In this document: in pieces, positions 4,371 to 64,000 of the stretch
How positions within the stretch are numbered: the stretch's first letter is position 1
How the letters are laid out: the number at the start of each line of letters is the position of its first letter
From: Erythrobasidium yunnanense
Lineage: Eukaryota; Basidiomycota; Cystobasidiomycetes; Erythrobasidiales; Erythrobasidiaceae
Assembly (NCBI GenBank): GCA_001600175.1
Contig: BCJC01000007.1
Coordinates: 1,326,115 to 1,390,114 of the forward strand
DNA length: 64,000 nucleotides
Direction: 5' to 3'
Notes under the pieces: generated by a model
Databases searched by the model: none
The model's input: only the letters and a program-made list of their open reading frames with translations
Told to the model about the DNA's origin: nothing
Position numbers and translations under genes: made by a program

Positions 4371-7300
4371 TTGGGCGCCTGGACGATGTCGTCCCAAAAC
4401 GGCGAGATGCGGTGGTATATAGCGAGCCAAATCTACGCCAGACGAATGCTGCAAGCATGGGGTCGCTTCGTTGCGACGCATCAGATCGCAGTCCTGCTGC
4501 ACTGCTGTGTGTTTCTATGCGCCCTTACATACCCCGTTCTGTCCCTTTACGCCTGGGCAGCTCCTTCGTCTACTTCGGACTTCTTCGACTTCCTCAGGAC
4601 ATCTCCCACTTGGAACCTCATCGGAGCAGATGGAAGCATAGCTCGGGCTAGAGATTTGAAACTGCCCTGGCAAGATCTGGACGCTCTTGTCGTTAACTCC
4701 GAAGAAGCTTGTTGGCAGAGAATACCAAAGTTCAGAGAGGTATCGGTGCAGCAGATACTCTTGGGCTTTCCAGAGGATGGAGGTACTGCTAGCGAGCATG
4801 GTGTTTTGGACCGAAGAGCACTCCACAGCGTGCACAAGCTGGAGAGAAAGCTGCAGGAGGCATTGTCTTCGGATCGGATGAGACTCGCAGCACCTTGCGT
4901 GCAGCTGGAAGATCCTAATGTACCGTCATACCAAAGGTGCCTTACGCTGTCGCCGATGGCCTACTGGAATAACGATGAGAGCGCAATGCTGGCCGACACT
5001 TCCCTTATTGCAACCGTCAATTTGGCCGAACAAAGGTATTACGACATGCCTCTACGACAAGACGTCCTCTTTGGCGGTCGCGTACACTCCGGATCAACAA
5101 TGCGAAAAGCCGACTATGCCGTCCTCACCGTCTTCTTGCAAGAAGCGCCAAGTCTACATGTCCTTCATGAATTACTACAGTCTTTGACTGCCGACTCTAC
5201 GGACATAGTATTGGTGGAGACAGCGAAGAAGGATTCAAAAGTTGTAATGAAGCATCGTTCAGATGTCAGGGTACGCTCAAAAGCCTGGGAGGACGTCTTC
5301 TTCTATCTTGGCTACGTGGTCGTAGGACTCTATATCTTCATGACACTACGTGGGCTCGACAAGGTGCATTCAAAAATGGGTCTAGTTCTTACCGGGATCG
5401 TCCAGTCGCTCGCCTCCGGTATGATGTCCCTTAGTCTCTGCGCCTTGGCTGGTTACAAGATCAACCTTGGTATGACATGCGAAATCACATATGCTTGTAA
5501 TCCTCTGACAAATTTTGGCAGTTCCTTGGAAACTCATCCCCTTTCTAATCATCGTCCTAGGCGTCGACAACATGTTCGTCCTCACTAGTGCAGTCTCTTC
5601 CACCTCTATCAATCTTTCCGTCAAGGAACGCATAGCAGAAGGCTTGTCGATGAGCGGCGTCAGTATCTTCCTCAATCTCGTTGCCGAGCTGTTCTTCATA
5701 TGGGGTCTATACATTTTCATACCGGCAAGGGTGATCAGGGAGATGGTCGTCTTCAATGCTATAGCTCTCATTATGGACTTCTTGCTGGAGATGACCTACT
5801 TTATCACGGTCTTGAGTATCGACATGCAAAGACTCGAATTGGCAGACTTCATCACGCAAGGATCCAGGACACCAACCTCGAAAGGGTCTTTGCGGTATCT
5901 GGAAGGCAGTAAGATCCCTAAGCTAGCGGAGGGTCTGATTAGATCCTTTCAAGAGCGCAAGGCCAGGACTTATACTGCGATACTGGTAAGGTGGCATACT
6001 CTGGACAAACCGAGAGCGATATGCTGACAGGTTGAACAGCTGGTCGCATCCAACTGGTTTTTATACATCCTTTACGGTGCAGACTACTTTGTCCCGGCCT
6101 TCTGTTCCAACCTGGATTTTGCCGAGGGACCGAAGCTTAGCAAGACCTCTGGTGCTTTTCTTACAGCAAGCGAAGCCTTCTGGCAACACCTTGGCGCCCG
6201 CCCGTCTGAAGCAGTTCATGTTCACATTACGACACCCTTCGTCTTCTTCTTTGGACACGGCAGTCAGCCTTCGTCGTCTCTCTCAAACATCACTCGAAGC
6301 TCCATCCGCACGGCCATCAAGTTTGTGGGCCTCCCCATCTCCTTTACGACGCTTGTCCTGTATCTGCTGCTGCGCCAGCTTCTCAAGGGTAGCGAAATGC
6401 TCAATACCAAGGAGTCGTCTCAGGAGCAAGAACTTGAAGTCTTGGGTCCTAAAGATATACCAAGTCCCGATGATCCTTCCGTCAATGCCCGAATCGTGTC
6501 TTCTCGGCAGTCAGACATCGAATTGCTGGCTTGTAGCCGAGATGGAAGATTCACTGCTACTTGGGTACCCCTAGAGCACGCCATTTCGGTCCTGCCTACG
6601 GACGACAGCGATTCAACAGGAACCAAAGTAGTATTGCCACTGAAGGGCGTTCTTGCGCGCGGCGAGAATCTGATAGCTGTGTCTCTCTCCGACCGAGGAG
6701 ACTATTGTGCTGCAGCCTCCAGTAGCGGAAGGCTGCTGATCTGGCCCCTGCTGCTGCAAGGCTCACCAGTTGCGAACCCAAGCTCGTCCGGACCAGCAGC
6801 ATCGCGCATACTGCGAATATCAGCAGAACACTGCCTGGACGATCAGAAGCCTCCGAAAGCTTTGGGCAGTTTGGACACCTCCCAAGCCAGTGTTCTCTTC
6901 TATACCACCCATCAGGATGGGTCTGTCATGCAGTGGGCATCAGACAGGGCGGAGCCGGTTATCATTGTGGCTTCGGCAGGCGAAACATGCAGGACGACAT
7001 TCCTTGAAGAAGTTTCAGAATCAGTGCTCATCATGCGCACAATTCAGTCAAAGTCTATCCAGATCTGGGCGAAGCGGAACGAGTCAGCTGCAGCACTCAG
7101 CTGCATGAGCGAAATAACGGCGAATAGTGGGATTACATCGGAGGCGAGCTGCCGCTTCGAAGGCAAACTCATCCTGGCCTTAGGATTCAAGAACGGCACA
7201 ACTGCAATCTACGATGTTGAAGATGGCGGGCAGCTTCTTACACTGAACGCTTCAACGAGCCCCGTGAAGAAGCTTCGTTTGTCGCCGATAGCGGGCAGTA

Positions 7301-8190
7301 GATGCCCTTCTTGCACGAACTACAACAACAGCGGCCTTTCAGTGGCAATAGCATCCTCTGCTGTAGCTCTTCAGCTTTACAAAGTGACATCTTCTTCGAT
7401 CGCGGCTTGCAATTGTCGACCTTTCAGCCCTGCGGGCGAGTCGAGCAGCTCGAAACCCGCTTCGCTGTCCCCTCTATCACAGCGTCGAACGACGGGAGGT
7501 GCTCGTAGACCATCTGAAGACGTGCAAGCACTCTCATACCCCTTATCGCCACACGCTCTAAGACGATTCAGTCATGCGGCAAGTGATCGCAAGAAGATTG
7601 AAGAATCAACGGGCCGGAAAGCAGTGAGCAACGGAGAAATCATCAACGGCGGGTCGCACGAGCCCGCAGATCCAATCTTCGCACATACGAGGAATGGCCC
7701 CTCTACACACTCCGACGCTTCATCCCCTGACGAAATTTCTAGTTGGTCGTCGCAATACCTGGGCAGTATACAACTGGATGAGAGAGGTCAGTGGGATACC
7801 GACGGCCATGTTCTTGTTGGCATGAGACGGAAGTCGACCTTTCAGGGTAGTTCTCCCTTTGCGCGTTGGGATGTTTGGACAACATCGCTCGAGCGAATCT
7901 CGTTTGCGCTGGATCCGAGCAGTTCACACGCTCGTAGCCTGTTTGAGCTGCTTCAGCCTCCAGCACTAGATGGTCTTTTCAGGGTGACTGGCAGTGGTGG
8001 CAGAGCCTCGCAAGAAGCTGACTTGAGGGCGCAGCTGCCTTTCTTCGAAGTCCGACGCCTGCAGATGGCTCGTGCGTCAGGCAATACGAGCGCTGCTACC
8101 GTGGTTCTCGGAAACAGTCTAGTACAATTCGATATTACGCTGCCGGCCTTATCGGTGAAGCGCACAAGATCACGACAGCCTCTCACCTGA
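4371..8190 (+). CDS. SCP1: SCAP/Scp1-like sterol-sensing SREBP cleavage-activating protein
   Basis: This is the fungal SCAP homologue, an ER membrane protein that escorts the SREBP-type factor Sre1 and senses sterol or oxygen shortage. Three exons join in frame (introns 5470-5521 and 5986-6039) to 1237 residues; a second Met at 4386 is an equally good start. An N-terminal membrane segment (LLHCCVFLCALTYPVLSL) precedes a luminal loop. The sterol-sensing domain then runs from about residue 300 to 520 and includes LGYVVVGLYIFMTLRGL, FLIIVLGVDNMFVLTSAV and NLVAELFFIWGLYIF. After another membrane pair the C-terminal half (from about 700) is cytosolic and WD40-like, with degenerate repeats such as LILALGFKNGTTAIYDVEDG. 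It is the only sterol-regulation gene here apart from the ErdS pair 40 kb away. Confidence 0.93.
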
Positions 8191-15288: not shown

Positions 15289-18200
15289 TCAATCGCCCCT
15301 GAAAAACCCTACTTGATCGACCTGGTTGGGCGTATAGACCGAGCCATTGCTCATTGCAGATTCTGGCCTAATAGGCCTTGCCAGATCTAAATGCATAGGC
15401 TTGTGGGCCTGTCCCCGTGCGCTTGAGACAGGCTCATCGTAATAAAATTCGTTATCGGTCGTTATGACGCTGGGCGTACTTGTTCGAGAAATAGATGTAG
15501 GCGAGACGATGCTTGCTGTGATTTGTCCTGAATTTCGGACGTCGGGATTGATGACCCGTAGACTGTGTTTTACCCCGAATGGATCGGTAGTGCGTCTTTG
15601 CAGAAGAGTCGGCTGGAGAGTAGGTGATTTGGGAAGAGGCGGGTTGTCAGAGTACAGAGGACTCTCGGTCATTGATCGATCATCTGCTAAAGGAGAAGAT
15701 GATGGATAGAGTAGTTCTTGCTGAGAGGGAGCTAGGTGAATAGCTAGCTGCGGCTTGCGCGTGCTAGCTTTAGGCGAACTTCCAGCGTCATCGTAGCCGA
15801 GTACAGTAGTAGCGTGTGTACTTGTGGAGCCAGATGGTTTATGCTGACTTCTTGCCACATCCGAGAGATACTGTTCTGAGCTAGAAGGCGTCAAAGCACT
15901 TCCAGACGATGGATATGTCCGATGAGATCTCGATCTCGCTCGATAGGGTGCAGCGCCAGCAGGCAGGAAGTACCCATTGTCTGAAGGATCGTCTCTGTAG
16001 ATCTGGGACATGTCTGGTCCGGAGCTCATCTGTCGATGATGAATAGGTCGAGATGAAGGCGACCACCTTTCGGGAGACGATAGATCGCCACCGTTCTCGA
16101 ACGATACAGGAGTATACGTATCGGCTGATTCGATACTAAATGCTCGAGATCGACGTCTTTGTGCAGCTGTACCGCCTCCAGACCCTCCGCTAGACAAGAG
16201 ACCAGGCAGAGAGTACGCAGAACCAGTTGTATGCAGGCGCTCGACAATCGGCTTGACAAACTTGTTACGACGGCGCTGTAAGTGTGCAGAGGGGTAAGCT
16301 CATGTCCAACAGGCACATAATGGCAATGAACTCACTTTGCCTAGCATCCAGACGATGGCTGCGATGACAATAATCCCCATAATGATGCCAGTAACTGTAC
16401 CTGCAACGATCTTACCACTCGTACTTATGCCACCGCCTGTATCGTTGTTTAAGAATGGATTTCTTCCTCTAGTCGTTGTAGTCAATGTAGTAGGCTGTCC
16501 ATTCGCATCTGTACCCGTTGAGAAGTACACGCTTTCGCCATCCGATAGAGGCGTAGTGGGCGTAGGTTGGAAGATATCGCTTAAGCGAGATAATTCAGTG
16601 GCAGCGGATGTGGGAAGGACTTGTTGGCCGATAGAGACTACAGGAGCTGCATCTGCGGAAGCTGTTTGGCCAACTGCAACTTTGGCTGCAGAAGCCTGGG
16701 CTGCAGTAGCGGCGTTCCCGCCAGAAGCTGAAGATGGCGATTGTACAAGTTTTGAAGTATCGATGTTCGTGGTACCGCTTGCAGTCTGTACGGAGCTCGA
16801 GACTGCCGCACTATCGCTAAGCGACAGCGTCCCGCGAGTTGTCCCAGTCGAGAGCTCAGCCGATGTCGTGCCTGTCCCGCTCGAATTTGAAGTGCTGGAC
16901 TCCGACTGTGTCCGCGTTTGAGTGGCCGTCTCAGAGGTTGTATCCGAGCTTGTCAATGTAGACGTATCTACATCGGTACGTGAAGTCCGACTGGTCGTTA
17001 CTTGCGTACTTGTGGTCGTTGTATCGGGATCTTGCTGGGTCTGAGTCTGCGTAGGCTGGCTCGTGGTAGTTGTAGTATTGTCATCTACGCTAGTGTCGTT
17101 ATCATCTGATTGATTGGACGTTGTTGTTTGAGGTGGGTTCTGATCTTGGGTAGTCGTAGGCTGATCCTGCGTCTGCTGACTGGTCTGCTCCCCGTTGTCA
17201 CCATCGTTGCCGCGTTGTGTATCCGTCTGTCTAGGCTGAGAAGTGCTCCCTCCGTTATCGCTGTCGTTATCATTGCTGTCCTCTCCACCTCTCGTCCGTG
17301 TAGGCTGTTGGGAAGAATCATCTTGACCAGATCCATTGCCTGTCTCTTGCGGCTCATCTGCAGCACTATATCCTCCGCTTTCCTCCATACTGGTTGAAAT
17401 ACTCGACCGTGAAGGCGCAGAATCGTCAAAAGTAGATGAGGATCCCTCGGGAGGTTGGCTTGATGTTTGCTGGTCCTGCGACGATGTCGAAACTGTAACG
17501 TCGAAGGATGTCTGAGTGGTCTCCTCGTCTGAAAAACGCGATGTAGTACGCGAGGCTGTGCCTGTCACCGAAGTCGGTCCTGATGTCTCGCTACTTGTGG
17601 TCTTGGGTTGCGTAGTCTCCTCCTCTCCTTGACTGGATGTAAAAGTATAGCCTTGCGAACTCGTGAAGGGACTACTTTGCGATCCAGGCTCTTTTTGAGT
17701 TGTCTCTTCAGTTACGCCTGCAGTAGGCGTGGAAGGGTCACTCGAAGTAGGTGTGTAATTAGGATCCCCTTGAGAAGTGTATGGAGATCCTGAAGGTGTG
17801 CTAGAGCTTGTAGGAGGAAATGAAGAAGTGCGAGATAAAGGGAGAGTGTCTTCGCTTGGGTCGTCACGCGAATTGCTTTGCGATGCTGTAGGGGGTGATT
17901 GCGATGCAGTATCAGAAGTGTGGCCACTCTGGCTATACGTGGTTGACCGCGTAGGCTGAGCTTGCGATGTTCTGGCTTCTCGAGCTACAGAGCGTAAATG
18001 CGGTCAGACCGAATTCTCTTGCGATTTCGACCTCTTCACCGGCTCACAAGAATCAGATACTGTATTTCCCGAGTTAGTGCCTTCCTCTCTGTCGTTATTG
18101 CTGCTCTGCGTGTCTTGACTGCTATCGCTCCCGCTTGAGCCTTCTTGACTTTGTCTTTTGCTGAATCTGCCCGAACTTTGGCTGTTTCTGCGATGTACTG

Positions 18201-20074: not shown

Positions 20075-20628
20075 CGGAGCATATGTCGAGCATGTCGTAG
20101 ATGTGCAAAGAACCCTAAGCTATTCCTTCCCTCTGATATTTTCGCAAACAAGGCTGGCGATTCCAATCTGGCCCGGCACAACGCTGATGACAGTTAACAT
20201 CACCTCTACAACATGCTACACAGAAGGAACAGCAGCAGTAGTGATTTAGACGCTTCGCGGCAGTAAAGCACGTGTGTGACAGGTGTTGACGTAACTTATC
20301 AGTAGCCTTCTCGGAGCGGCCTTCCCAGGCCAAACAAGGGATTTTCCAGCATCGTATAGCTTGTGCAACTACACATCTCTTCCTTGTGTATTCTTGTCAT
20401 CTGTTCTACCGAGATTTTAGACCCACCTTCCCGTTTGGGGGAGATCCGACATTGCAATTCATGGTGAAGGCGTCAACGTCAACGTCCAGGTTTAGCTTAG
20501 GCCATCTACTTGCTTCACTTCAAAACACAATCATTCAAGGAAGGTCGAGGTCTGCGGCAAACTCCGCCTGTCAAGTAACCCTTTTTCGACGGTCGCCCCT
20601 CGTTTGAGTTCTTCTCTACCCAAAAGCC
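20075..20628. other. Divergent promoter region PL14-like/GT31
   Basis: This 554-bp spacer separates the starts of the PL14-like gene (-) and the GT31 gene (+), which could be co-regulated from here. Only short open frames occur. No RNA gene was seen. Confidence 0.5.
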
Positions 20629-23600
20629 ATGGCCAGCTCGCGACCTGGGACGCCATACTACATCTTCAGGGATACGACTGACGGGTCTTTGGATCCGCCG
20701 CCGTACTATACTTCTGGCTCAAGCGATGGATCTCCCCCGTCGAGCTTGAGCAGCCCAAGATTGGGGCAGGCAGAAGTCGCAGTGCAGCTGCCACCGCTGC
20801 TACGAGGAGATACAACTATTACAATAGATAATGCACATCTGCGACGCCAGGAAAATCCGCCGAGGGATGTCCTTCACTCGTCTTCAAATTCGGCCTCGAG
20901 ATCCTCGCTTTCCGTTACAGACGATGGCGAATACGCGTTCGCACTGAGCGACAACGATGACAGAGCAAGTACAAGCGGTGGATATGGAAGTAGTAGTGGT
21001 CTTGCAGAGGGTTCGCGAAACTCCGCTGCTCATACAGCTGCTCGAGTGAGGAGAATCAACAGTGCTGGCAGCGGGTTGAGCATCCTGGGCAATCCGCGCT
21101 ACAGGCATAATGGAGGATTCTCAGCTGCAGGAAGTGCATTTACCACGAGCGCAATGAGCCCGATGTCGGATACAGAAGGTCCGACAAGCAGATTCAGTAG
21201 CAGGGCAGCTTCACCTGCGATGGGTGCTTCCGCATCTTCTGCATCTTCAGTAGCTGGTTCAGCTTCATCTTCGACATATTACATTCACCACCATCACTAT
21301 CATCACCCTTCAACGGCTTCTACCACCTCAAGCTCTGCCAATTCCCTGGACGGCAAGAGCAGCAGTGCGAAAGGGAAAGAACGCGCTCGCCCACTATACA
21401 GTACACCTTCATCATCAAACCTTAACTCTCCGGACTATGCAGTGCCGATAGATGGGCCGTACGGCTCAGCCTATCATTACCGCAACGGTCCGTTGGCAAA
21501 GAAGCTAGGAGGTGCTATCCTCTCACGCGACCCTTCTCTAACCGATCTTCCTCTTCTGGCGAACGGATCTACGTCAGCATCAGGTTCAGCCGCACATCGC
21601 CGGAGGTCTGGCTGGAAAACACCTAGAAACAGCAGTATAGACGAAGATCCCAGCGATCTAGCACTACATCTCGATACCTCATTACGGCAAAAACGACGTA
21701 TAAGTCACTTCATACCGTTTCCAGGCCTGGTCAAATCCTGGAATCGCTTTCTCCGCCATCCTTTCGTCCCAACTCAACCCCTTACTATACTCTTCGCTCT
21801 TGGCCTTTTCGTATCTTTCGCATATTCCGTAACAACGTTCATGTATCATATTCTCTCGACCGACAAGACACCAAGACCTTGGCGGACATACTGTCAAGAA
21901 CAGCGGCCTTTCCCTCACGATCTGGCAGACTCTCTTAATCCTGTAGACGTCTTCGTTGGCGTCTTCTCAGTAGACGCAGCATACGAGCGGCGGCATCTCA
22001 TCAGATCAACCTATCTACGACATTCTCGTCCAATAGACCCTTATACCGGCAGCCCAGGCAACAACGTTCAAGTCAAGTTTATCCTTGGGCGGCCGCGGAA
22101 ACACCATGCCAGGCGCGTTGCTCTGGAAATGGAGACATACAACGATATCGTCGTTCTCGACATCAAGGAGAATATGAACCAAGGCAAAACGCATACCTTC
22201 TTCAGATGGGCGAATGAGAACGCTACAGTACCGGTTTACTACAAGCAAGCATCTGGCAAGAAGTACGGAGCTCTGGACCCGAGTTCTAGCGAAACAGGCG
22301 TAGAACGATACAGTCTGGCTTTCAAGAAAGCAGACTACGTTGTCAAAGCGGATGATGATGCATTCTTGGTCCTGTCTGAGCTAGAAAGGCATCTGCGGGT
22401 AGCGCCGCGAAACAATATGTACTGGGGATGTGAGTGACCGCTTACCTAGTATACATGGTGCACTTTCTGACTGCTGGTATCCATAGATCTCATTCGAAAC
22501 CTTTTTATGGGCGGCGAATGCTATGCTCTTTCAGCTGATCTCGTCAACTATGTAGCTACGGCACCGGCGCTCGAGGCTTATACCGCAGGGGCCGAAGACA
22601 AGCGTGTAGCGAAATGGATGCGAATGCACCCGAATGCTTCTTCCATCAACTGGATAACCGAACGATGCTATGTCTACGATCATCCGAAGGCAGCCACTAC
22701 CTACTCTCACGGCTTCCTTTTCCCCGATGAAGTCGAAAGAGTGAGAGCAGAGGGCAGACTTGGCATATCACCCGCAGAGAAAACAAGGAGAGGTGGAGAA
22801 ATAGCAGACGCTTGGAGTAGCGTGTCGAAATGGAAGAAAGCATATTCTCGCCCAAAGTCAGAGATGACAATGGAAGAAGAGGTCGAAGCTCTCATCGAAG
22901 GTGGAGGAAGATGGACCGCACTTGATGGCTGGACCAATCAGATTTCTTCCAACGATGTCGTCAAGTGGGAAGACGTGGTTTTCGAGCCCTCCGATACACG
23001 CATCAAGGGAAGCGCCGATAATGTCCGAAAAGCAACTCAGGCTCGGTCAGAATAGTAAGCCTACTTTTCAAGCAGCAGACGGACATGTCTGAGTATAACT
23101 TTACTTGTAGTAACGCCAAGGCCGAAATGGCTTTCGGGAAATACAACCGCATGCCAAACTCCCTGATTCGCGATCCTGGCGATAGCGACATTCGACCTCA
23201 GCACGCAAAACGAAAGTCATCCTCTTATGCCTTCTGGAAGCGGGGTTCATCTGGCAATACCTCGGCTGAAGATACAAGTAGTGCCGAATCCTCTATGCTT
23301 GAAAGCACTTCTTTGGCTAGCTATGCCAACCATACGCATTCCACATCCTCTCTTCTATCGTACTTATCGAACAGTTATTCCAATCCTCCCCACGCTTCCG
23401 CTTCTTCCCCTTCCCTAGACCAGCCACAAAATCACCACCATCAGATTGTCATCGGTGCTCCCAATTTCAAGCAGGGCTACTCCCTTTTCCCAGATACAGA
23501 TCATGATCCCGATTCATACAAGAAGAAGGCCATCCCTGCTCCTCAACTCCGGTACGATCCTACAAACATGTCAGTTCGTGAGAAGCGCTTCTTAGGCCTA

Positions 23601-26742: not shown

Positions 26743-28225
26743 ATGCACGTCCAGATATGCACCTGGAACGCTGGACAGGTCCTCAACCAGCAGAAGACCC
26801 TTGATCTATCGACATGGCTCTCGGATGACCAATTATTTGACGATGCTCCGCCGGCCATGATTGCGTTCGGTTTCCAGTGCGTTGCAAGCTTTCGAGGCCT
26901 TCAGCATGACACTCAAGCGATAGTACACATAGAGAAACATCTCCTTTACCTCTGTCTCTTGTTGGGGCCGCCAGTGCTCAGCTGGCATCTCTCGAGGACC
27001 GGCTACGTCAGGAACTCGACAAACGGACTAGGCGAACTAATGATACAGCATACAGTCAGTTTGAATTTGGAAAGTCGGCGGGAAGTCCTGGCTAAGCTCG
27101 TGCATCAGAACTCGTCCGGAAAGCCATCATAGGAGGTATCGCGCTTTTCATATATGCAGACCATAAGACACATAGCAAGATTGCAGATATTCAGACATCC
27201 TCAGTAGGATGTGGACCGCTGTACATGTCTAACAAAGGTAAGCTGCAAGTATTCCGCTCAGAAGGATCGAATTTCATAGTGTTGCATTTGCCAGGCGCTG
27301 TTGGCATTCGAATACAACAGAAGAACAGTGATATATCTCATACATTCGTCTGCGCACACTTGAGCGCCCATGATTACAACCTTGCAAGACGAAACCTGGA
27401 TTGGCAGATGATCGTCTCTAGAATGGTCTTCACTGCTCGTAACGGCCGCCAACTGCAGATATATGATACATCCCACTTGTATGTCTTTGGTGATCTCAAT
27501 TATCGGGTAACCCTGGAGAGTCCTCGTCGCATTTCATTGTCTCAATTTGGCGATATGCTGGAGCAGGATCATCGGGATCTCCTGGTTCATGACCAGCTAT
27601 CGCAAGAAATGAAGGGAGAAAGGACTCTCCATGGTCTGTCGGAAGGAGAAGTAACCTTCGCGCCTAGCTACAAATTCAAGGTAGGAACGGATACTTACAA
27701 GGTAATTCAGCCCTTTCGCAAGTTCATCGGATATCCTGACATTGGCATCTATAGGCATACTCGAAGAGGATTCCAAGCTGGTGCGATCGCATTTTATATG
27801 CTTCGACTGGCGATGTTCAGGTCCGGCAGTACTACTCGGTAAGTACAACTGACAGTGGACCCATGCCGCGACAGATTGATTGAGGTATCTTGCAGGTAAA
27901 GGCGGTCCGCTTCAGTGATCACAAGCCGGTCATAGCTACATATGCTCTTGGATCTGAGCAGGAGAAGACTTCTCCAGGCACGCTTCAGCATCGATCACCC
28001 TTCAGTATTGATGACTGGACCACTTTCAAAAGACATGTCGGACTGTTGCTCGACAAGGTGGTCGGGTCTGTCTGGTGCTTAGTTTATTTTGCTGGCTTTG
28101 GCGACGATACACTAGGTCTAGCCTTGCTCTTGGTCTCGGCGTCCACTTTACTTCTCGGAAAGGCTTTGGGCGTCAACATACACTCTGCCTTGGAGTACAT
28201 TGGAAGCTGGTCTGCCACCACATGA
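26743..28225 (+). CDS. Inositol polyphosphate 5-phosphatase with C-terminal membrane segments
   Basis: This enzyme removes the 5-phosphate from phosphoinositides or soluble inositol phosphates. The start MHVQICTWNAG is the usual beginning of the IPPc catalytic domain (Asn as metal ligand). Later exons carry VCAHLSAHDYNLARRN (catalytic H), VFGDLNYRV, AYSKRIPSWCDRILYA and RFSDHKPVIATY, all signature motifs in order. After the catalytic domain the C-terminus has hydrophobic stretches (SVWCLVYFAGFGDDTLGLA and ALLLVSASTLLLGKALGV), so the enzyme is probably held at a membrane by its tail. There is no Sac1 domain, unlike synaptojanins. Several introns interrupt it. The stop at 28225 is about 50 bp before the next gene's likely start, an unusually tight same-strand arrangement. 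Confidence 0.9.
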
Positions 28226-42043: not shown

Positions 42044-43086
42044 CTACAGTACCTTATCTTGTAGCCAGCCTCTAAACCCTGCTGTCCCGTCTTCTACGCT
42101 CTCTGCCGCCGTCTCTCCATTCATAGCAGGCTTCTCGAGCTCTTTCGCACTGGACGTGGCCCATGATACGTTGATCCCAAGCTTTTCCTCATCCCATGTA
42201 AAAGGACCATCGAAATCCAATACGTCGCTCTGAAGGATCTCCTGCTCGTCTTCGGGCAGTCTGATGCCGCCGACACTTGAAGTGGTGCTTGTGTTTTGCG
42301 ACTGCTTCGAGCCAAAGAGACCAAAGAAACTGAAAGGACTCCTCACTCCTGACGACGGCAGTTCGTCTATGCTCTCCAGCCTAGCCTGTGCTGCAGCGAC
42401 ACCGGATGAGGCTTTCCTTCTCTTCTCAAGCTCTCTCTCCAATGCTACCTTCACCCTCTCCTGGGACCTCTGTTTTTGTATAGCGCTCCATGAGTCTGAC
42501 TTCGTAAGAAGCAAGAGGACTGGAACAGCCGCCTTCTTGCCATTGCTCTTCTCCTCCAGAGTTCGGATCAGAGAGAGCAAGACATGCAGATGCTCTGCGG
42601 TCGTCTGTATGCCTTGCGAGTTGCCGTTCAGCTGAGGATCTATGAAGAAGACGATGCCATCTGCAGCGCTGAGATGCTGAGACAGAAGGTGTGACCGGAG
42701 TCGCTGATGGCCGGGCAGGTCGATGATCTTGATCTTCTCGTCAGGCAGGATCGCTGTACTGCTTGTCATACTTGTATGCGTGGGTGGTGATTGCGAGTAG
42801 ACTAGCTATTGAAACAGTCAGACTAGATACCCTGCAAGACCAGAAGCTGGCTTACCCTGCCAAAGAAGGATGTCTTTCCGCTCGCCATAGGGCCTACGAA
42901 GAGTATCGTAGCATTTGATCCACTTGCTCTCGCTCGTACGGGGACGCCAGCCTTGCTTTTTGTTGCAGAACCAGACAGGGCAACGACAAGGACGGCAGCT
43001 ACGACGGCGGCCAGCGCGACGATAGCATAGCTTCGCGAATCCAGGACATCCAGAAAGGGAGATATTGACGTCGAAAGCTTATCCAT
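42044..43086 (-). CDS. SRP102: Signal recognition particle receptor beta subunit
   Basis: SR-beta is the ER membrane GTPase that anchors the SRP receptor alpha subunit. The N-terminus carries one membrane segment (YAIVALAAVVAAVLVVALS). The P-loop exon reads ATILFVGPMASGKTSFFGRV. After a short intron the second exon has KIKIIDLPGHQRLRSHLLSQ (the DxPGH switch II motif), GIVFFIDPQ and VPVLLLLTKSDSWSA (TKxD specificity motif). The tail carries a Ser-rich insertion and ends GFRGWLQDKVL. Length and motif order match Srp102/SRPRB. It is head to head with VPS25, with only 82 bp between the two start codons. Confidence 0.93.
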
Positions 43087-46637: not shown

Positions 46638-49600
46638 TTATTCTTCGGAAAGACCCTTAACAAGAGCGTGGATACCGCCCACACCAAGACCTCCATGCTT
46701 GGGATAGCAGATGTAGACCATGTCTTGCTCGGTGCCGAACTGCCGCAACAATTATCAGCAAGAACTCAAGCATCTGTGTGCGTCTATGCTCACCTTAGCT
46801 CTGAACTCCGGCTTGGATAGCAGGTGGAACGAGCTTGTTATAGCATCGTAAGCCTTTGAGAGCGTCTTCATCTTCAGTGCGCTCTGGTGAGAGCCCTCGC
46901 CAAGGTGAGTAGCAGCGGATGTTCCGAATGTAGTCGAGTGGCAGCCTGCTTCTCCCAAAGTCGTGATGGCTGTAGAGAGGAGAAGCTCGATAGCTCCTGG
47001 TGGACCATCGGGGAAAGAGAGCGAGTACTTGATCTGCCAGCCGTGCATGGGTGCTAGCTGAGCCAAAGTGACAAGAGCGACGATCTGCAAGACACACAAT
47101 AGTCAGTGACTGGCTCGAAATGACATAGGTCATTTTGGGAGTCACCTTTCCCTGCTTGTCAGTAGCGTAGAAGTACCGTCTATGGGCGCTATCGTCCCAA
47201 GGCAACAGACTTGTAGTATGCATCTGCTTGCCCTCACGGGTACCTCGCCAATCCTGATAGCGATGGAACGCTTAGCTCCGTGCGCTAACAGCTGAACTGA
47301 CTCGGGACTGACCTCCATTCGCTGATCGATTTCAGCACGAATCTTCTCATCCGGCAAAGAATCGCAAACGACAGCTTTGACACCATTATTTCTAGCTTGC
47401 GTAATCTTCTTGCCCAAGTTGGAGCGCGTAGTCTGGCTGTTCGGGTTGTGTGCGGTTGGGTCAATTCGCTCTTCTGCTGCAACGGCGAGGGAGCGCCAGT
47501 CGAAATCTTTGGCCATGATTTGTTCAGTAGGCTCGTCGACGCAGACGAAGAGAGGCTTGAGCTTCCTCTCTTTCTTGAGGTAGGCCAAGTAGCGTGTAAC
47601 AACGGTCTGGCGAGCGAAATCATAGCGTTAGCAGAGGTGTAAGATGAAGGGACAATTGGAGCGGCATACCTTCAGATGTTTGTCATCGCACAATGGACGA
47701 CCCCATGAAATAGCAAAGCCTTCGCTCTCTCGGAAGCCACAGGCTGCACCACTTTCTGAATCTCGCCAGATCTCCCAGCTTGGGTCCAAGTATACAGTAT
47801 TGGCAGCGTCTCCGTATGAAGCGACTGGATGCACAAATCACTTATCAGTATGTCTCGAGAAATGTAAGGTCGACTTTTGACTCACTAAGATCCTCCACAG
47901 AAGGTAGAGGAGGGTCCTCTCCACGTCGTCTGGCAGTATCCCAGTCGTCCAAGTTGACTTCTGGTCCTCTTAGCGAAGCACCTCCATTCGGCGTCTTGTC
48001 CTCGGGGAATGACTTCGGGTCTCTCGGGAACAGCGAAGCCCATCTTACATTTCCTAGATCCAAGAAAAGGAAGATAACGCGCTCTAAACCGATACCACCA
48101 CCACCATGAGGCGGGCAGCCCCATCTGAATCCATCTAGGTAATCGACCATCTGCTTCGGGTCGATCTTGGCAGCTTTCATCTTTTCTTCTAGTAAAGGAG
48201 CATGGTGGATTCTCTGTCCTCCAGAAAGGATCTCTTGTCCTCTTAGGAAGAAATCCGCAGAATTGGAGATCCGTGGATCGTCTGGATCAGGCATGGTGTA
48301 GAACGGCCGTGCAGAAGCAGGGAATTTATCGACGATGTAGTAGTCGGTGTTGTATTTCTCCTTAACGAGTTTGCCCAAATGCTTCTCCGTAGGAGTGCTG
48401 AAATCCTCGTATTCGGAGATCAGCTCCCCGTCCTCGCGCCAGCCTGAGTCGTTCAGGATCTTGACAGCCTCTTTGAATGTCAGGCGAACAGTCTTATCAG
48501 GGATGACAAGGTCTTGGGAGGGGAATTGGCGGCGGATGATGTCGATGAGGTGGCTGTGGTTCTTTTGTAAATTCTGGAAGAGATTGATGAACATGCCGTC
48601 GAGGGTGTCGATGACTGAAAGAGCGAGCGAAGGTCAGCATGCGAAGTGTCGGTGATAGAAGTCAGCTGACCTTCATGGTAATCGTTATCGATCTGCATCT
48701 CCAGATCCATTCCGATGAACTCGGTCATGCTGCCAGAAAATTATCAGTAACGGCCAACCTGACCCCTCTAAGTCTGTCTCGGAACTCACTGTCTAGCAGT
48801 CTGTGAATTCTCCGCCCTGAACACCGGTCCAATCTCAAACACACGTTCCATATCTCCCGCAATACACATCTGTTTCGCCAACTGCGGACTCTGGGCTAGA
48901 GAAATAGGTCTCTTGAAATAGTCTACCTTAAACACTGATGCCCCACTCTCTGGAGCGCCTTGTTGGAATTTAGAAGACTGGATCTCCGTGAAACCTTGTT
49001 CTGTAAGATAGGTGCGGAAATAGTGGCATACGGCGGCGCGGAATTGGAAGATGGCTTGGGAGACGGGTGTCTAGAGAAACTTGTCAGTATCTGGCTTTGC
49101 AATTCCTCATATACTTTCTGTGCGCATACACGGAGAGAGGCGACTCGGTTGCTGAAGTGCATCCTGGCGGACACTTGATTTCCGAGATGGGAGTGATTCT
49201 GCACATTTGGTTCCTTAGGTCAGCTTGTCTGATCTGTGTATCACGCAAAAACTAGCTGCAGCGCACCTCGTGGAAATCAGACTCTGGCCGCGCAGCATCG
49301 TGAATATTGAAAGGAGGGGCAGCGGTGACTTGCGAGACTACGTGTAGCTATATCCAATCACACGACCTTCAGTCCTTATCCACCAATACTCGTTAAAGCA
49401 TGCGGCACAGCTGACCTTCTTTATCCTGACTTCGACGTTATGGATAGTGGTATAGTGAATATCCGACTGTCCATGTTTATGTGGATCTTGCACGACCGCT
49501 CGTACGAGGACTATCGTTTCTTGCGGCAAGCGCTCTACGAAGCGAACCATGTTTTCGGAAACTTCATTCTCTTGAATACTCAGCACGCCTTGAAGCTCTT

Positions 49601-50488
49601 GATAGCGCTGGCGGAAGATGACGAATGCTAGCTTGGCGCCTGGACATAGCACGGTTTAGCGAATAAACAGTAGAGGATAGACGATCGCGCACTTTGAGGT
49701 CGCACGCTTTGTATCCTTGCTCGGAAATATACCTCGTCGCCTTCACTCTTCTTTGCAATCTCTACGAATGTGTCTTTCCTATCAAGCCCAGAATACGCGT
49801 TAGCTTTACCCAAATATAGGAACCAGCCAAAGAGCTCGTCCACTCACCTTCCGGACGTATCCACACCGACGTTAGGCGTCGCATCGATGTTCAAGAATCC
49901 ATAATGTTTGTTCAGAGGATCCTTCTCGTATGCTTCTTTATAGCCGAGTTCACGCTGTAGCTGTTCCTGCTTGAGTTCCATTGCCTTGTCCACCCTCAAT
50001 GCTCTCGTATCTTCTTGAGTGATGGTATGATGCATTCCAGGTCGTGCTGCTGTCTTCTCATCCATTGACGCTCTCGGGGATGCTGATGACGATCCCTCGG
50101 TATGCTTCTTCTTGTTCCCCAGGGATGCTTTCACAGCCAAGAAATGTTCGTGTGGATCTTTGCACTTGGTGCTATTGCTTCTCTCCAGCCCATCTGCGTG
50201 CGAGTCTGCGTGCTTTTCATGCTTGTTGTGCTTGCCAAACAGGGCGTCCAAGGGACCATGGCTCTTGTTGGAGGCAGCATGACCAGCAGGATGAGTTGTA
50301 TGATCATGGTTGACTGGCGTTGTCGCTCCACTGGCTACAGGCGAGTTCAAATCTGAATTGACGTGGGCCAGCGCTGCATGATGCGGGTCTGTCGGAGTCG
50401 CAGTCCCAGAAGCAGAGCTGCCCTCATGCTTATCCTTGTTGTCGTGGTGTGTCAGCTTGTTGAGAGCATTCTTGACCAGCTTCGACAT
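46638..50488 (-). CDS. erdS: Ergosteryl-3beta-O-L-aspartate synthase: aspartyl-tRNA synthetase fused to DUF2156
   Basis: ErdS charges tRNA-Asp and then moves the aspartate to the 3-OH of ergosterol. Thirteen exons join in frame to 1039 residues. Residues 1-~190 are a His/Lys/Ser-rich extension. The class IIb AspRS follows: OB-fold (EVYFRARIQSVRPQ, LAFVIFRQRYQELQG), motif 2 FEIGPVFRAENSQTARH (Arg about 452), SADFFLRGQEILSGGQRIHH and motif 3 GCPPHGGGGIGLERV (Arg about 659). The intron at 47885-47825 joins EDL to IASYGDAANTVYLDPSW, so the DUF2156 (GNAT-like transferase) domain, about 724-1039, continues in the same frame. It includes AISWGRPLCDDKHLK, LFVCVDEPTEQ, AVAAEERIDPTAHN, HGWQIKYSLSFPDGPPG, GCHSTTFGTSAA and LGVGGIHALVKGL. 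Each domain alone is recognisable; fused, they define ErdS. A separate cytosolic AspRS should exist elsewhere. Confidence 0.93.
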
Positions 50489-50900
50489 TGTCGCAGGCTC
50501 AAATTGGAGCAGAGGGAGAGAGAGATACCCTAGTGCTCGGTCGGGCTGACAACGCCTTGAAGGAAGAAGAAGAAGGAAACGAGAAGGAGCAAAGGCAAGG
50601 TAGGGAGTTGATGTATGTATACCTTCCAAGACTATTACGTACATCAGCTTGCAAAGCTCGCTCATCTAGGCCCTGATAAATTGACGCAGATGAGATGGGA
50701 TGGCCTATTTGGGGACATCTCGCAGATAACGCCGAGTCGCAGCTGCAGTTACTGCATCAGTGTCGCATCAGTCACATAATCTGATAGTGCTCTGTCTTGT
50801 TTCTTCCGCAAGAAAGCCCTGACACCAGACCTTATCCCCGTATTACGAAGATCCCAAATCCATGCTTCGAAAGACGTTCGCATTACCATCAAGCATACAC
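50489..50900. promoter_or_regulatory. Upstream region of the ErdS gene
   Basis: This 412-bp spacer lies between the SF3A3 stop and the ErdS start, both minus strand. About 70-110 bp upstream of the ErdS ATG the coding strand has a CT-rich tract (purine-rich near 50560-50600 on the plus strand), a common core-promoter feature in fungi. The 5' leader continues an open frame upstream of the chosen ATG, but without domain content. Confidence 0.45.
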
Positions 50901-52725
50901 TTATATGAGGCCCTGTCTCTTGAGGTCCTCATACGTCTTCCTATTGTACACATTCCCCTCGTCGTCCTCAATCTCCTCCATCGTCTCTACAGAGAGCGCA
51001 TCCTGGCGTCCTTGATTCTTCAGCTTCTCAGCCAGTGCAACCGCATCTGCTATCTTCGTAATCTCGTGGAAATGCTTCGTGTTGGGCAGACCTAGTGCAC
51101 GCATGCCGAAAGCATGGCGGGCTTCCTGGAAGTGTCGCTCGAAGTTTTTCCTGGACAAACGACCGGAATCAGCATGTAGATGACAGAGTATACGTTGACA
51201 AGAAAGTCACGCACCTGCCGCGGTAAGAGAAGTTTGAGCAAATCTCACAGTCATACTCGACTCCCAGTCCGTGAAGTTTGTACAGCCAGAAGGGAATAGG
51301 TTTTCCATCCCATCCAAGGGGCAGTTTCAGAGGATTATAAATTCTTTCTTCCTCATCATCATCTCCCAGCGCCCCATTTGCACCATTCTCATCTCCGTTG
51401 TTGATACCAGCTGAAGCGTTTCCTCCCTTCTTTGCTGCTTTCTCAGACTTGGCAGCGTATTCTTCAGCTTCTTTCCTCTCTCTCAACTCGAGCTCCTCAT
51501 TCTCGATCTGGCGCTCTTTGTCCGTCAAAGCCTGTTTGCGCTCAACATTCGCTTTCGTGTCGTTTCGGATCACAAGCAGCGGTGAGTCGTAGTCGGATAC
51601 GAGCGTCCGGACCTGATATTCGAGTAAAGCCATGGAACGGGCTTTCTCATTGTTTGTTAGGTTGGCAGTTGAGGATGAAGAGGTGGAGGTGGAAGCTTGG
51701 GCGGAGGAAGCGGTGCTGTCGCCATTTGTCTGGGCGGCGGCTTTCTTGAGATGGTTCTTGGACTTGAGATGTGCGTCGTAGACAGTCTGCTTGGCATACG
51801 AGCGCTGGCCTGAACACCGAATGCCAGGATCCGTCAGAACGGCTATCATCGCGATAAGACAGGGGTGTATATTTGCTTACAGGCGGCACACCATATACCC
51901 TCCTGCACTGCCGCCTGTCCATTCGCAGTCGCTTCGTTCCATCCTTCGACCTGTCCTTTCTCCCACTTCCCTCTAAATTCATTGACCGCTATCTCCAGCT
52001 CGCTATCCAGGTCTTTCAGCGGGAATGATCTCGTATAGAACGACTTCAGGTAATCTAGTAGCGCTTGTAGGTATTTCGCATAGTTGTCGTTCTTGGCCGC
52101 TCGAGGGATCTTGTCGAAAGCGTCAAAGTCGTCCAGGTATTGAAGGTAGTTGATCCGCTTGATGCCGTGCCCTAGGTTGGAATGCCGTTCGTGCAGAGCG
52201 ACCAAGTCGAGGTAGCGTCCTAGAAACTCTTCGCCAGAGAACATGCGGTCGAGGACTGCGATTTCGAGTCCGGAGGAGTTAGCCGCTGTGCTTTGTAACA
52301 CGAATATATGAGAGAGCGGATGGCTCACAATCCCTTCCATCCACAAAGCCAGCCCCAAACAAGGACGAGTAATCCACTTTTTCCTCCTCGTCTACCCTCG
52401 AAGCGTTCTCTGGGAATTTGCGATGGTATTCCTTCAAGCCCGCTAGTCTGTTATAGAACTCTGCTATACCTCCATTCGCAATAGCTTCCATCTCAGTCTG
52501 ACGGGGATGGCTTCCATTGACATTATCCTTGTAGGCCAGCCTGAGCTCGGATGAACGGTCTACGATACGGTCTAGGAGGTGCGATGCTTGATGTTTGGCA
52601 GCTAGACGTTCACGGTGTAGCTTGTAGTTGTCCTCGGGAACAGCAAGAAGATGGGTTAAAGCTTGCTCGTACGTCTCCAGAGCCAGGTGCGTCTGGCGCT
52701 GCGACTCGATGACAGACGTGGACAT
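50901..52725 (-). CDS. SF3A3: Splicing factor 3A subunit 3 (SF3a60/Prp9)
   Basis: SF3a60 is a U2 snRNP protein needed for prespliceosome assembly. The start at 52725 ([17 protein letters not shown]) opens an N-terminal helical region with [15 protein letters not shown]. Then come [38 protein letters not shown] and [19 protein letters not shown] first zinc finger is split by an intron ([24 protein letters not shown]). The C-terminal matrin-type finger reads [20 protein letters not shown], again spliced, followed by [20 protein letters not shown] and the usual end [13 protein letters not shown]. All family landmarks are present in order. A Ser/Ala-rich insertion lies between the fingers. With SF3B6 it is the second U2 snRNP gene in the window. 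It is head to head with the LisH-CTLH gene (136 bp). Confidence 0.94.
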
Positions 52726-59048: not shown

Positions 59049-60436
59049 ATGCTCGCAAAGCAGTCCTTTTCTTCTTTCATATCCACACCACTCCGTCGAA
59101 GCTTCGCTACTACATCTGCCAGAATGTCCTCTTCTAAGCTCAAGGTCGTCGTGACGCGCAGTGGGCTCGCTTTGCCGGAAACTTGGACAATATCGTAACT
59201 CACACAGACCTTGCCAGCTCTACCGGATCAAGGTGCCAATCTTCTCGCTGAAGACAGTCGCATAGAAGCTATAACATGGCCTGAAGACCGCGTAAAGAAT
59301 CCTATGCTATCGAAATACCCGGAAATATCGAAACGCTGACTTTCTGGATACATCATAGCCCTGCGATAGACAATGGCTTCTGGACAATATCAAAGGCGCC
59401 TCTGGTCTGCTGTGCATGCTCAATGATAAATGCGACCAAGAGTTACTCAATCAAGCTGGCGATAAGCTGAAAGTAATCTCGTCCTTCTCGGCTGGATGTG
59501 AGCGGACTCCTATGCCTCCGCGAACTAGGTTATGTGCTAAATTCACAGCTGCAGTTGATCATGTCGACCTTCCTGCGCTGAAAGAACGCAATATACGGCT
59601 TGGATACACGCCCTCTGCGCTCACAGATGCTGTTGCAGACCTGACAGTCATGCTAGCTTTGATGGCAACGCGAAGAGGAGGAGAAGCAATGCGACGTGTG
59701 CTAGACGGGGACTGGCCCAATATGCCATGGTCACCTCTGCTTCTCGCTGGACCTCAGATCAGTCAATCTACAGTCGGCTTTCTCGGATTCGGAAGGATAG
59801 CACAAGCTACGCTCGTTCGTCTACTACCGTTCGGGATCTCAAAAGCTCTATATCTAGGCTCCAAGCCTGGCCAACCTGCCAAAGAAGACCATTATGGAAT
59901 AGTCAAAGAACAGAGAATACCCATACAGCCGGCGCAAGACTGGAAACAGCTGGCGAAAGAAAGTGATATACTGATTGTTGGATCGGCATTGACGCCCGAG
60001 ACGAAACATCTCGTAGGCAGCGAGTTCCTCAGTCTCATGAAAAAGAGAGCTGTGGTCGTCAATATCGCTAGAGGGTGAGGACCACGCTTTTGTGGCAAGG
60101 GGAAATGCGACTGACGTGTTGAGTAGACCCATCATAGATACACAAGCACTCGTGAAAGCCCTTGAGACAGAACAGATATTCGGAGCAGCTCTCGATGTGA
60201 TCGAGAATGAACCTCAAATCCCGGCAGATCATCCTCTCGTGCAGCAACGTCGCTGTGTGGTAAGTCATTACCGACGAAGGAGCCTTTATAGAGCTAGCTA
60301 AGGTGTTTGCGACCAGCTTCTTCCGCATATCGGATCCGCAAATATCGAGACGAGAAGCTTGATGTCTGAAGAATCTGTCAAGAATCTTCAAGCTGGCTTA
60401 TTTGACGGGAAGATGGTCAATGAGAAAGCTCTGTGA
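59049..60436 (+). CDS. D-isomer-specific 2-hydroxyacid dehydrogenase, glyoxylate/hydroxypyruvate reductase-like
   Basis: This NAD(P)-dependent enzyme most likely reduces glyoxylate or hydroxypyruvate. The leader [20 protein letters not shown] looks like a mitochondrial presequence; [10 protein letters not shown] at 59121 would give a cytosolic form, and 59007 is a further in-frame Met. The spliced body has [60 protein letters not shown], the Rossmann motif [45 protein letters not shown] (catalytic Arg), [20 protein letters not shown] (catalytic Glu) and [11 protein letters not shown] (catalytic His). All catalytic residues are present. It ends KMVNEKAL. The family contains formate, glycerate and phosphoglycerate dehydrogenases too; GRHPR fits best by the VIENEP and HIGSA contexts. 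The exact first intron donor is uncertain. Confidence 0.87.
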
Positions 60437-60613: not shown

Positions 60614-63600
60614 ATGAGCTCTTCGCGTGCATCGCTCGACTCAGAGAGCGGCTACTCTGTCGTCGACCACAGCAATGACGGCCACTCTCTACGACGCCCA
60701 AGCGAGATCATTGCTCGAAACAGCCAGTTGGCCAAGAGTTACGGGACAAGCAGCGATGGCCGACTCAACTCGTATTCGTATGTAGAGTTGACAGCAATGC
60801 ATCAGAACCAGCTCGCGAACCCTCTACATGCTATGCTTGCAGGATCTCGAGCATACTCTCAACGCCGACAACCTCCACTGCCGCCGTGATCAGTACGAAC
60901 CTGAGCAACCTGAATCCACTGCGATCCACGACTGGCCCGAAGACAGGAGCAACTCGAGGCAAAGCTGCGACTCCCATAGTCTTATCCGACTTGCCGAAAG
61001 TCTCGCGCAAGGACTTTGACGCGTACATCGAATCTATCCGGGCAGACTATACGACATGGAGCAAGCTACAGACTGCTCTTGCTGACAGGCCTATCCTAGA
61101 AGATATAGATGCGGATGAGTTGCTGGACGAAGAAGCTAGTCGGCGCAAGAAAGCCGTTGCTCAAGCGCTCGAAGGCAGTAACCTAGGGCAGGAGAAGAAA
61201 GGTCGCAGGAGGAGACAATTACCTTCTCTGGATGAGATACCGCAGATCTTCTTCGAGGAAAACTTCAACTTGGCGAATCCGCATACATTCGAAGTCGTGA
61301 CAACCGGATCATCTGGAGCAGCGCAAGGAAACAGGAAACAACAAAGCTTGAGTGATTTCTCAACAGATCAAATACTTCAAGAGAAGCTATCGCACTACCT
61401 CGATATAGTGGAAGTCCATCTGAGCGTGGAGATTTCGATGCGATCAGCCTCGTTCTTCTCGGCGCTCTCGAATCTGCAAGCGCTGGATTCACAATCAGCA
61501 GAAGCACTGAAGGAGATAGCGTCGCTCAAGACAGTCTTGACAGAAGTCGATACGAGCGTGGCTCAGAAAGGCTTGGAAGCTGTGCGGAAAGGCGCGAAGC
61601 GGAGGAAGCTCAGCGAACTTGATCAAGCAGTAGAGAGGGTCAAGGAGGTCCTAAGAGCTGTCGAGCAGGCGGAAGACATGGGCGAAGCTGGAGAGATCGA
61701 TGGCGCTCTGGACCTTATCGAAGCGCTGGAGAATGAGTGGGATGCGAGCCTACAAGACGAGACAACTTTTCCGATAGACAAGGCTGCTGCTTCTACCACC
61801 GTAGCGTATACAACCCAACCCCTGGCGGTCATAGGCGAAGATGACGAGTGTGAAGTGTCTGCTCAAGCCTCGAAGCAACCGAAGACCCCGTTGACGAGTA
61901 TATTTCGCCGAGCGCAACACCACGCTCCTGTGCGGATAGCGCGAATACATGCCCTAGCCGGCGTCCCTGCTCGACTCTCATCTTTACGTCTCGCGATCGC
62001 GCAAGCGCTTGAGCACGAATTGCTAGCAGTCCTGTTACACGAGCGCGGCGAGGCCCTGTCCGACTTCCCAACCTTCAGCACATCCGATATAACAGAAACA
62101 GAAGGAAACGATGTGCAGGCCTGGCAGGACCGTGTCAAATCAAGCATAGAAGCCAAATCATCCAACATCATCCGAGGGCTTGTCCGCTGCGGCAAGCCTG
62201 CTGTAGACAGCGCGTTAATAGCATGGCGAGAAAGCTCTCTTCGGAACCTGCGGCGCACTTTGCAGGATCAGCTACCGCAAGCGGCTGCCGAGGCGCATGA
62301 CGATGACGAGGTCCGCAGCGGGGTTGACTCAAGTGGAAGATCGTCTTTCGAAGGTAGTCGGCCAACCATGGACGCGCCTGCATCCGGCTACTTGACCCTC
62401 GCAAGCATGCCTCATTCTGCTTTCATGGAGCTCAGCAATCAGATCTATACGGCTATGCTCGGCTGTATATCCGTGACAGACCTTCAAGCCCAAGTCATGC
62501 AGCAAACAGTCTCGCAAAGCCTTCTACCCACAAAGTCCGATAGTGCGACGGCTGGCAGCTCAGGTCAAGCTCTGAACGAAGCCTGGATAACAGCTCTACA
62601 AGCAGAGCTTACAGAGACAATCCAAGCTGTTGCGGATCTTGCGAATGCTCGACTTGCCAAGCTGGTTACAGGTCGAGCCGATGCACACGCACACCTGCCT
62701 TTGCGGCAGTTCGTCGAAATTTTCGAGTATACTTGGCAATTTGTGCTCAAGTGCGAAACCCTCGGTCGCAAGATGATCGTTGGGCTCCGGGGTGTCATTC
62801 TCGCCCAGGTTAGTCATTACACAAGCTATCGATGGTATTCTCTGACTGAATACGCTCGTACAGTCGAAAACCTTCCTCCAGACATTCCATCAACGCCAGC
62901 TTACAGCTTCTGCAAAGGCAGTGGAAACGGAACAATGGTCGCCCACCGACATTTCTGCAGCCATACAAAGCGTAGTCTCGCGCTTGGTAGACAGTGCGAT
63001 GCAAGATCCGCCTCAGCTCAGCTTCAAGAACCAGTCGCAAGTGTCTGAGCAGACATTATCAGTCTCCGCCAAACACCTTACAGTGGAGGACAAGGAGTTC
63101 TTCGCTGTCTCTGCTGGTCTCCGCTCTTTAGAAGTGCTAGAAGAATACCTACAGATAGTCATCAACCTACCTCAGCTTACTACCGATGTGATGAGCAAGA
63201 TCATCGAGTTCCTTAAGCAATTCAACTCGCGAACCTGTCAAGTCGTTTTGGGAGCCGGTGCGATGCGCTCAGCTGGGCTGAAGAACATTACCGCAAAGCA
63301 TCTTGCTCTAGCTTCGCAAGCTCTTTCAATCATGATCTCTCTGATCCCCTACATTCGTGAATGCTTGCGGCGGCATCTGCGCGCGAAACAAGCTGTTATT
63401 CTTGTTGATTTCGACAAACTCAGGCGGGATTATCAAGAACATCAGTACGAAATCCACGCGAAGCTAGTTGCTATCATGGGAGACCGTCTATCCGTACATT
63501 GCAAGACCTTACAAAGCATTGATTGGGAGAAAGAGGGTGACTCTGCGCCACCCAACGCATACATGGAGACGCTTGTCAAGGAGGCAGGAACGCTGCATAA

Positions 63601-64000
63601 GGTTCTGCTGAAGTACCTCCCCGGCACAGCATTAGAATTGGTAATGATGCAAGTCTTGTCGGCCATCAACTCGCGACTCGCGGACGAGTACAGCCGGATC
63701 GAAGTGAAGTCGGAGGGTGCGAAGGAGCGCATCTTAGCAGACGCAAAGTACATGCGAGTCAAGTTCTCCGAGCTGAAAGGTCTCGAAAGGCCTGCGCCTG
63801 GTGCAGTGCGTGGTAGTCTCATCGTATTTGAGCATAGACTGACCGTCTCCACAGGAACTGGAGAGCCTCATACAGATGAAAAAGGTCGTAGCCCCCGCAG
63901 CCGCTCCTACGCCTGCACCACCGGTCAAGTCATTCGTGACACCCTCTCTGACCAGAGCACGTACCGGCTCCGTCTCGCAGCATAAGCGGACACCTTCGTC
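60614..64000 (+). CDS. VPS54: GARP complex subunit Vps54 (3' end beyond window)
   Basis: Vps54 is a subunit of the Golgi-associated retrograde protein tethering complex that receives endosome-derived vesicles. The start MSSSRASLDSESGYSVVDHS is placed at 60614. An intron with donor near 60778 and acceptor near 60842 joins LNSYS to ISSILSTPTT. The conserved N-terminal part reads LPSLDEIPQIFFEENFNLAN, PHTFEVV, LQEKLSHYLDIVEVHLSVEI and RSASFFSALSNLQALDSQSA. A middle helical region follows. A further intron near 62810 leads to the C-terminal domain with SAKHLTVEDKEFFAVSAGLR, LALASQALSIMISLIPYIRE and LLKYLPGTALELVMM. The last intron joins PAPGA to ELESLIQMKKVVAPAAA, and the frame is still open at the window end, so only the Ala/Pro/Ser-rich tail is cut. 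Confidence 0.92.

Follow-up and report, generated by a model that had tools for sequence, protein, structure and literature searches.

The window analysed here, a stretch of 64,000 nucleotides from contig BCJC01000007.1 of Erythrobasidium yunnanense, carries on its minus strand (46638–50488) a gene in which an aspartyl-tRNA synthetase (AspRS) is fused to a DUF2156 domain and which very probably encodes an ergosteryl-3beta-O-L-aspartate synthase (ErdS), a known type of enzyme. By manual splice reconstruction, with homologues aligned across the junctions, we obtained 13 exons and 12 introns; the spliced frame comprises 3120 nt including the stop codon, is free of internal stops and codes for 1039 residues, which reproduces exactly the 13 exons and the protein length given in a preliminary description of this DNA. 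Each intron has 53–69 nt (731 nt in total) and all are of the GT...AG type.

Exon 1 (50488–49848, residues 1–213) codes for a low-complexity N-terminal extension with the basic amphipathic start MSKLVKNALNKL. Exons 2–7 (49778–49693, 49639–49416, 49347–49267, 49198–49130, 49070–48790 and 48729–48671; residues 214–480) contain the oligonucleotide/oligosaccharide-binding (OB) fold region and the start of the class II catalytic domain, as judged from Pfam and the alignment to yeast AspRS (1asy), and exon 8 (48614–47886, residues 481–723) completes the catalytic domain, whose motif 3 (GGGIGLER) starts at residue 652, and adds a linker. The DUF2156 (LPG_synthase_C, PF09924) half is encoded by exons 9–13 (47824–47670, 47606–47313, 47253–47146, 47084–46794 and 46739–46638; residues 724–1039). 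Both halves are separated by a 61 nt intron (47885–47825) after residue 722, which splits codon 723, has consensus GT-AG borders and matches in phase on both sides. Homologues read across this junction uninterrupted at PSVEDL/IASYGD, which supports the claim that the synthetase runs in frame into DUF2156. If this intron were retained, 13 extra residues and an in-frame stop would follow, giving an AspRS-only product of 735 residues.

The alignment of the nearest protein among the matches listed, the environmental protein P0001 (74% identical), is unbroken around each of the 12 junctions, apart from slight deviations in length near residues 213 and 716 (in remoter rows also near 344). P0001 has both domains in a single frame of 1093 residues on contigs no longer than 3678 bases; as 731 nt of introns would be too long for these contigs, it is either transcript-derived or comes from a gene with fewer introns. 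An alternative start of the window gene exists at an in-frame ATG at 50665, since 50489–50665 (minus strand) is free of stops, and would add 59 residues. We prefer the start at 50488 because the protein then begins with MSKLVKNALNKL, and 62 of 120 homologues have a similar N-terminus.

The AspRS catalytic domain is matched by PF00152 (E 8e-73, residues 356–679), and the synthetase type is clear from the comparison with yeast AspRS 1asy (E 1.1e-138 vs 1.2e-18 for the best lysyl-tRNA synthetase (LysRS) chain). The C-terminal part, which the preliminary description had assigned to DUF2156, is matched by the PF09924 profile with 57.5 bits (curated cut-off 27.5; E 1.5e-15, residues 742–1018). The AspRS half has intact class II motifs and keeps 87 of 89 doubly conserved columns (two differ); of 63 near-invariant ErdS columns, 57 are retained in the DUF2156 half. 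P0123 and P0124, two partial Entrophospora rows, were left out of these column counts. Of 7988 candidates scored in a homology search, 2157 proteins matched at E <= 0.001, and according to the database's Pfam annotation PF00152 and PF09924 occur together in all 120 best of them; chance resemblance is thus excluded. Fungal AspRS-DUF2156 fusions, among them PDB entries 9w9e, 9w9f and 9w9g, match the window protein over both domains, and three proteins of a second list of 120 ErdS matches (P0116, P0281, P0282) bear the JGI label ergosteryl-3beta-O-L-aspartate synthase. We built a tree from 44 ErdS rows (the window protein and 43 of the 120 homologues, picked by hand) and seven plain AspRS rows; it separates ErdS from plain AspRS at 100/100, with the window protein on the ErdS side, which bears out the claimed kinship.

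The host genome (20.9 Mb, 10 contigs) also holds the second, plain AspRS that had been predicted. With the AspRS half as query additional matches were found on contigs C1, C2 and C6. The gene on C1, another contig, was assembled manually from 9 exons and codes for 573 residues; it shares 51% identity with the ErdS in an alignment of 464 columns, has the canonical motif 2 FRAEDSNTHRH and no DUF2156 before its stop. The matches on C2 and C6 share 27–29% identity and probably represent further synthetases of class II. A search with the DUF2156 half found nothing in the genome beyond the window's own gene at E <= 10, although a diverged, intron-split gene could escape it; the PF09924 profile gave no match in the whole genome, an uninformative result because it missed even the window's own copy, whose gene lies in short exons. 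Among the 120 relatives listed for the plain AspRS, two environmental proteins are 81–82% identical and the next ones, mostly from basidiomycetes, at most 65%. In a one-gene tree of 35 rows (34 hand-picked from these 120 plus the host's own AspRS) the host enzyme joins the long-branched Mixia at 100/98, with the Microbotryomycetes apart. This single-gene placement points to a member of the Pucciniomycotina outside the Microbotryomycetes and near Mixia.

Within the ErdS tree the window protein forms a clade at 100/99 with P0001 and the ErdS of Mycena galericulata, M. capillaripes and M. metata. Two further JGI proteins, P0005 and P0007, extend it to a seven-row clade (98/91 on the full protein; weak in the separate halves, 70/85 for AspRS and 64/9 for DUF2156). 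This side clade is separate from 22 agaric-type rows, 14 ascomycete-type rows and a long-branched Athelia row. Forcing the Mycena ErdS in with the 22 agaric-type rows costs 51.8 log-likelihood units and is rejected by the approximately unbiased test (p 0.00075), for which the group was chosen after inspection of the tree and the Athelia row was omitted. When the columns carrying the shared traits described below are removed, the five-row clade returns in both halves, weakly in AspRS (84/59) and strongly in DUF2156 (100/98).

The traits lie in the synthetase half. Motif 2 reads FRAENSQTARH (residues 451–461, positions 48821–48729 on the minus strand, interrupted by the intron 48789–48730). At position 457 Asn is present in 116 of 121 ErdS rows and the five side-clade rows have Q, Q, H, Q and H; at position 459 the same five rows have Ala or Gly, the remaining ErdS His or Tyr. 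Just before motif 1, residue 365 is Ser in all five members vs Asp in 115 of 116 other ErdS, and residue 358 is His or Gln vs Arg in 112 of 115 others. The motif-2 residues Arg460 and His461 are identical in all 121 rows, and P0005 and P0007 have an ordinary motif 2 of the NTHRH type. In the alignment to 1asy, residues 457 and 459 correspond to Asn330 and His332 of the yeast enzyme (a manual count based on the numbering of the chain). The QTARH context had been flagged as a point of interest; it is a signature of the five-row clade, yet Asn is not strictly kept even in plain AspRS, where the equivalent of 457 is N in 101, F in 11, S in 3, L in 2 and Y in 1 of 118 rows, that is, non-Asn in 17.

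A changed host tRNA-Asp was considered as a cause of the QTARH motif and rejected on the two host tRNA-Asp genes read. An anticodon-arm pattern gave 60 matches in the genome (34 in a reversed control), and in the 30 examined ARAGORN recognised two tRNA-Asp genes, both of which are ordinary by eye, with U1-A72 and G73. PMC9976931 names G73 as the standard aspartate determinant. A changed function of the motif-2 variant is possible but not indicated, given the variation at residue 457 in plain AspRS and the ordinary form of both tRNA-Asp genes read.

The N-terminal extension had been described as about 190 residues rich in His, Lys and Ser. We revise its length to about 213–225 residues (residues 1–213 contain 11% A, 10% H, 10% K and 9% S). 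It is a family trait: 225 residues precede the OB-fold, and the median is 159 for the 120 homologous ErdS proteins vs 95 for plain AspRS. A pattern for stretches resembling MSKLVKNALNKL, composed after inspection of the set, matches 62 of 120 ErdS N-termini, which are not independent counts because the homologues share kinship, none of 120 plain AspRS and a mean of 0.035 of 120 shuffled sequences. The hydrophobic moment of residues 1–14 is equalled by 0.4% of shuffles. A natural reading is that the basic amphipathic N-terminus would form a membrane-tethering helix, and a true membrane anchor would explain how a soluble AspRS fusion gets to its membrane substrate.

For the window protein we suggest the following mechanism, by analogy to its relatives. 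The AspRS half would activate aspartate with ATP and charge tRNA-Asp with it; the CCA end of the charged tRNA would then pass to the C-terminal MprF-like acyltransferase, which would detach the aspartyl group from the tRNA and attach it to ergosterol at the 3beta-hydroxyl. Both reactions are taken from ErdS relatives as described in PMC9437257 and PMC10449517. The Asp-tRNA for translation would come from the separate plain AspRS, and the N-terminal extension may anchor the otherwise soluble enzyme at the membrane. For the window copy we infer an activity, a product and a role of the N-terminus at the membrane; that the organism would produce ergosteryl-aspartate is a fair inference.

Some observations speak against an ordinary, active ErdS. 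The OB-fold is matched by PF01336 (residues 231–320) only below threshold, with 19.9 bits vs a cut-off of 27, and the six altered near-invariant DUF2156 columns could mean a changed or lost activity. It is likewise possible that the clade-specific changes at the conserved AspRS positions 358, 365 and 457 altered or abolished the activity. The MSKLVKNALNKL-like pattern has no match in P0001–P0005 and P0007, the six clade rows closest to the window protein, which perhaps escape it through wrong starts or looser spacing. Finally, a structure model, made for P0001 and not for the window protein, is of middling confidence (mean predicted local distance difference test score (pLDDT) 67.6, predicted template modelling score 0.42). 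In this model residues 1–213 have pLDDT values under 50, and the motif-2 stretch lies in another such segment, so that the loop cannot be read from it; the chains of 9w9e–g are absent among the 50 fold matches listed for it.

We regard one alternative as unlikely, namely that the window copy is a diverged ErdS with a weak or retuned AspRS half, which either draws most of the Asp-tRNA for its DUF2156 domain from the plain AspRS or forms a different product sterol. The five clade members share their changes at 358, 365, 457 and 459, the two host tRNA-Asp genes read show no compensating change, and 9w9g differs from 9w9f by substitutions in the motif-2 loop and at a few other sites, presumably made to disable charging. 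However, motif 2 has its Arg and His, the great majority of conserved columns in both halves is retained, and position 457 varies as well in plain AspRS, which must be active. Similarly doubtful is the wider proposal that a second ErdS lineage, comprising a Pucciniomycotina-like fungus, an environmental relative and Mycena, was spread among basidiomycetes by horizontal transfer, and that its AspRS half recognises the acceptor end of the tRNA through a changed motif-2 loop and hence charges tRNA-Asp unlike every characterised ErdS.

Two other explanations appear very improbable to us. The in-frame stop 13 residues into the junction intron could suggest that two genes were wrongly joined, a plain AspRS ending within this intron and a downstream free-standing DUF2156 gene of the ErgS kind. 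Yet the intron has proper borders in matching phase, homologues are continuous at this point, both domains occur together in all 120 listed matches and in the single frame of P0001, and a plain AspRS is encoded elsewhere. The good preservation of the AspRS half would also fit a fused gene serving as the cell's AspRS for translation with a vestigial DUF2156; this is opposed by the separate AspRS with its canonical motif 2 and by the 57 ErdS columns kept in the DUF2156 half. We keep to the reading as an ErdS gene, which is well formed and ordinary in kind; what is new is modest and consists in the lineage and the shared synthetase changes.

As to the lineage, the side-branch pattern would result either from transfer between basidiomycetes or from an old duplication plus losses. 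To our knowledge, none of the organisms named in either of the two lists of 120 ErdS matches belongs to the Pucciniomycotina, Ustilaginomycotina or Tremellomycetes, whereas all three are present among the 120 plain AspRS matches listed. This suggests that ErdS is rare in these groups, without establishing it, because the protein searches score word-sharing candidates only and list the best 120 of 2157 and the best 120 of 1611. The window gene would place a tRNA-dependent sterol aspartylase in a basidiomycete lineage that is not known to be represented among the named organisms of these lists, and the small clade offers a handle on how a duplicated synthetase may drift once translation stops depending on it. 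In the open-licence literature we found no paper combining ErdS with Pucciniomycotina or with cryo-EM, and for DUF2156 in Basidiomycota nothing beyond a known review and an unrelated paper.

The window protein resembles known ErdS in having the same two domains in the same order with homology over both, an N-terminal extension and a separate plain AspRS in the genome; it differs in its position in a side clade with three Mycena proteins and in the altered residues 358, 365, 457 and 459. ErdS has a hydrolase companion, ErdH. LysX of mycobacteria differs from the window protein in its domain order and in a membrane domain, and its synthetase half is a LysRS and not an AspRS. This LysRS-MprF fusion likewise has a synthetase and a lipid transferase on one chain, according to PMC9437257. 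The ergosteryl-3beta-O-glycine synthase ErgS is also a tRNA-dependent sterol-modifying transferase with ergosterol as acceptor; in PMC10449517 it is described as using Gly-tRNA from an independent synthetase and as found only in Ascomycota. In contrast, the DUF2156 of the window protein is not free-standing but fused to AspRS. The bacterial MprF/aminoacyl-phosphatidylglycerol synthases use phosphatidylglycerol as acceptor, have no fused AspRS and show 13–14% identity in their rows.

Several other genes are present in the window. A gene for a splicing factor of the SF3a60/Prp9 type (50901–51876, minus) lies on the same strand as the ErdS gene, with its end 412 nt upstream of the ErdS start. A SCAP-like gene (4350–8190, plus strand; SCAP_N with 31.7 bits vs a cut-off of 27.9, and WD40-type matches below threshold in the frame that follows) would code for a sterol-sensing regulator about 38 kb from the ErdS gene, with no sign of linkage between the two. 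Pfam matches above cut-off mark a galactosyltransferase (20608–22434, plus), an Exo_endo_phos2 domain (27096–27839, plus), the beta subunit of the signal recognition particle receptor (42047–42805, minus) and a 2-hydroxyacid dehydrogenase (59359–60075, plus). A gene for Vps54 of the GARP complex lies at 60679–63985 on the plus strand, with PF07928 (E 7e-56) in its second frame and a sub-threshold Vps54_N match in the first. On the minus strand, 16300–18003 holds an open frame of 567 residues with a very high content of Ser and Thr and a hydrophobic stretch near its end, resembling surface proteins of the wall or mucin type.
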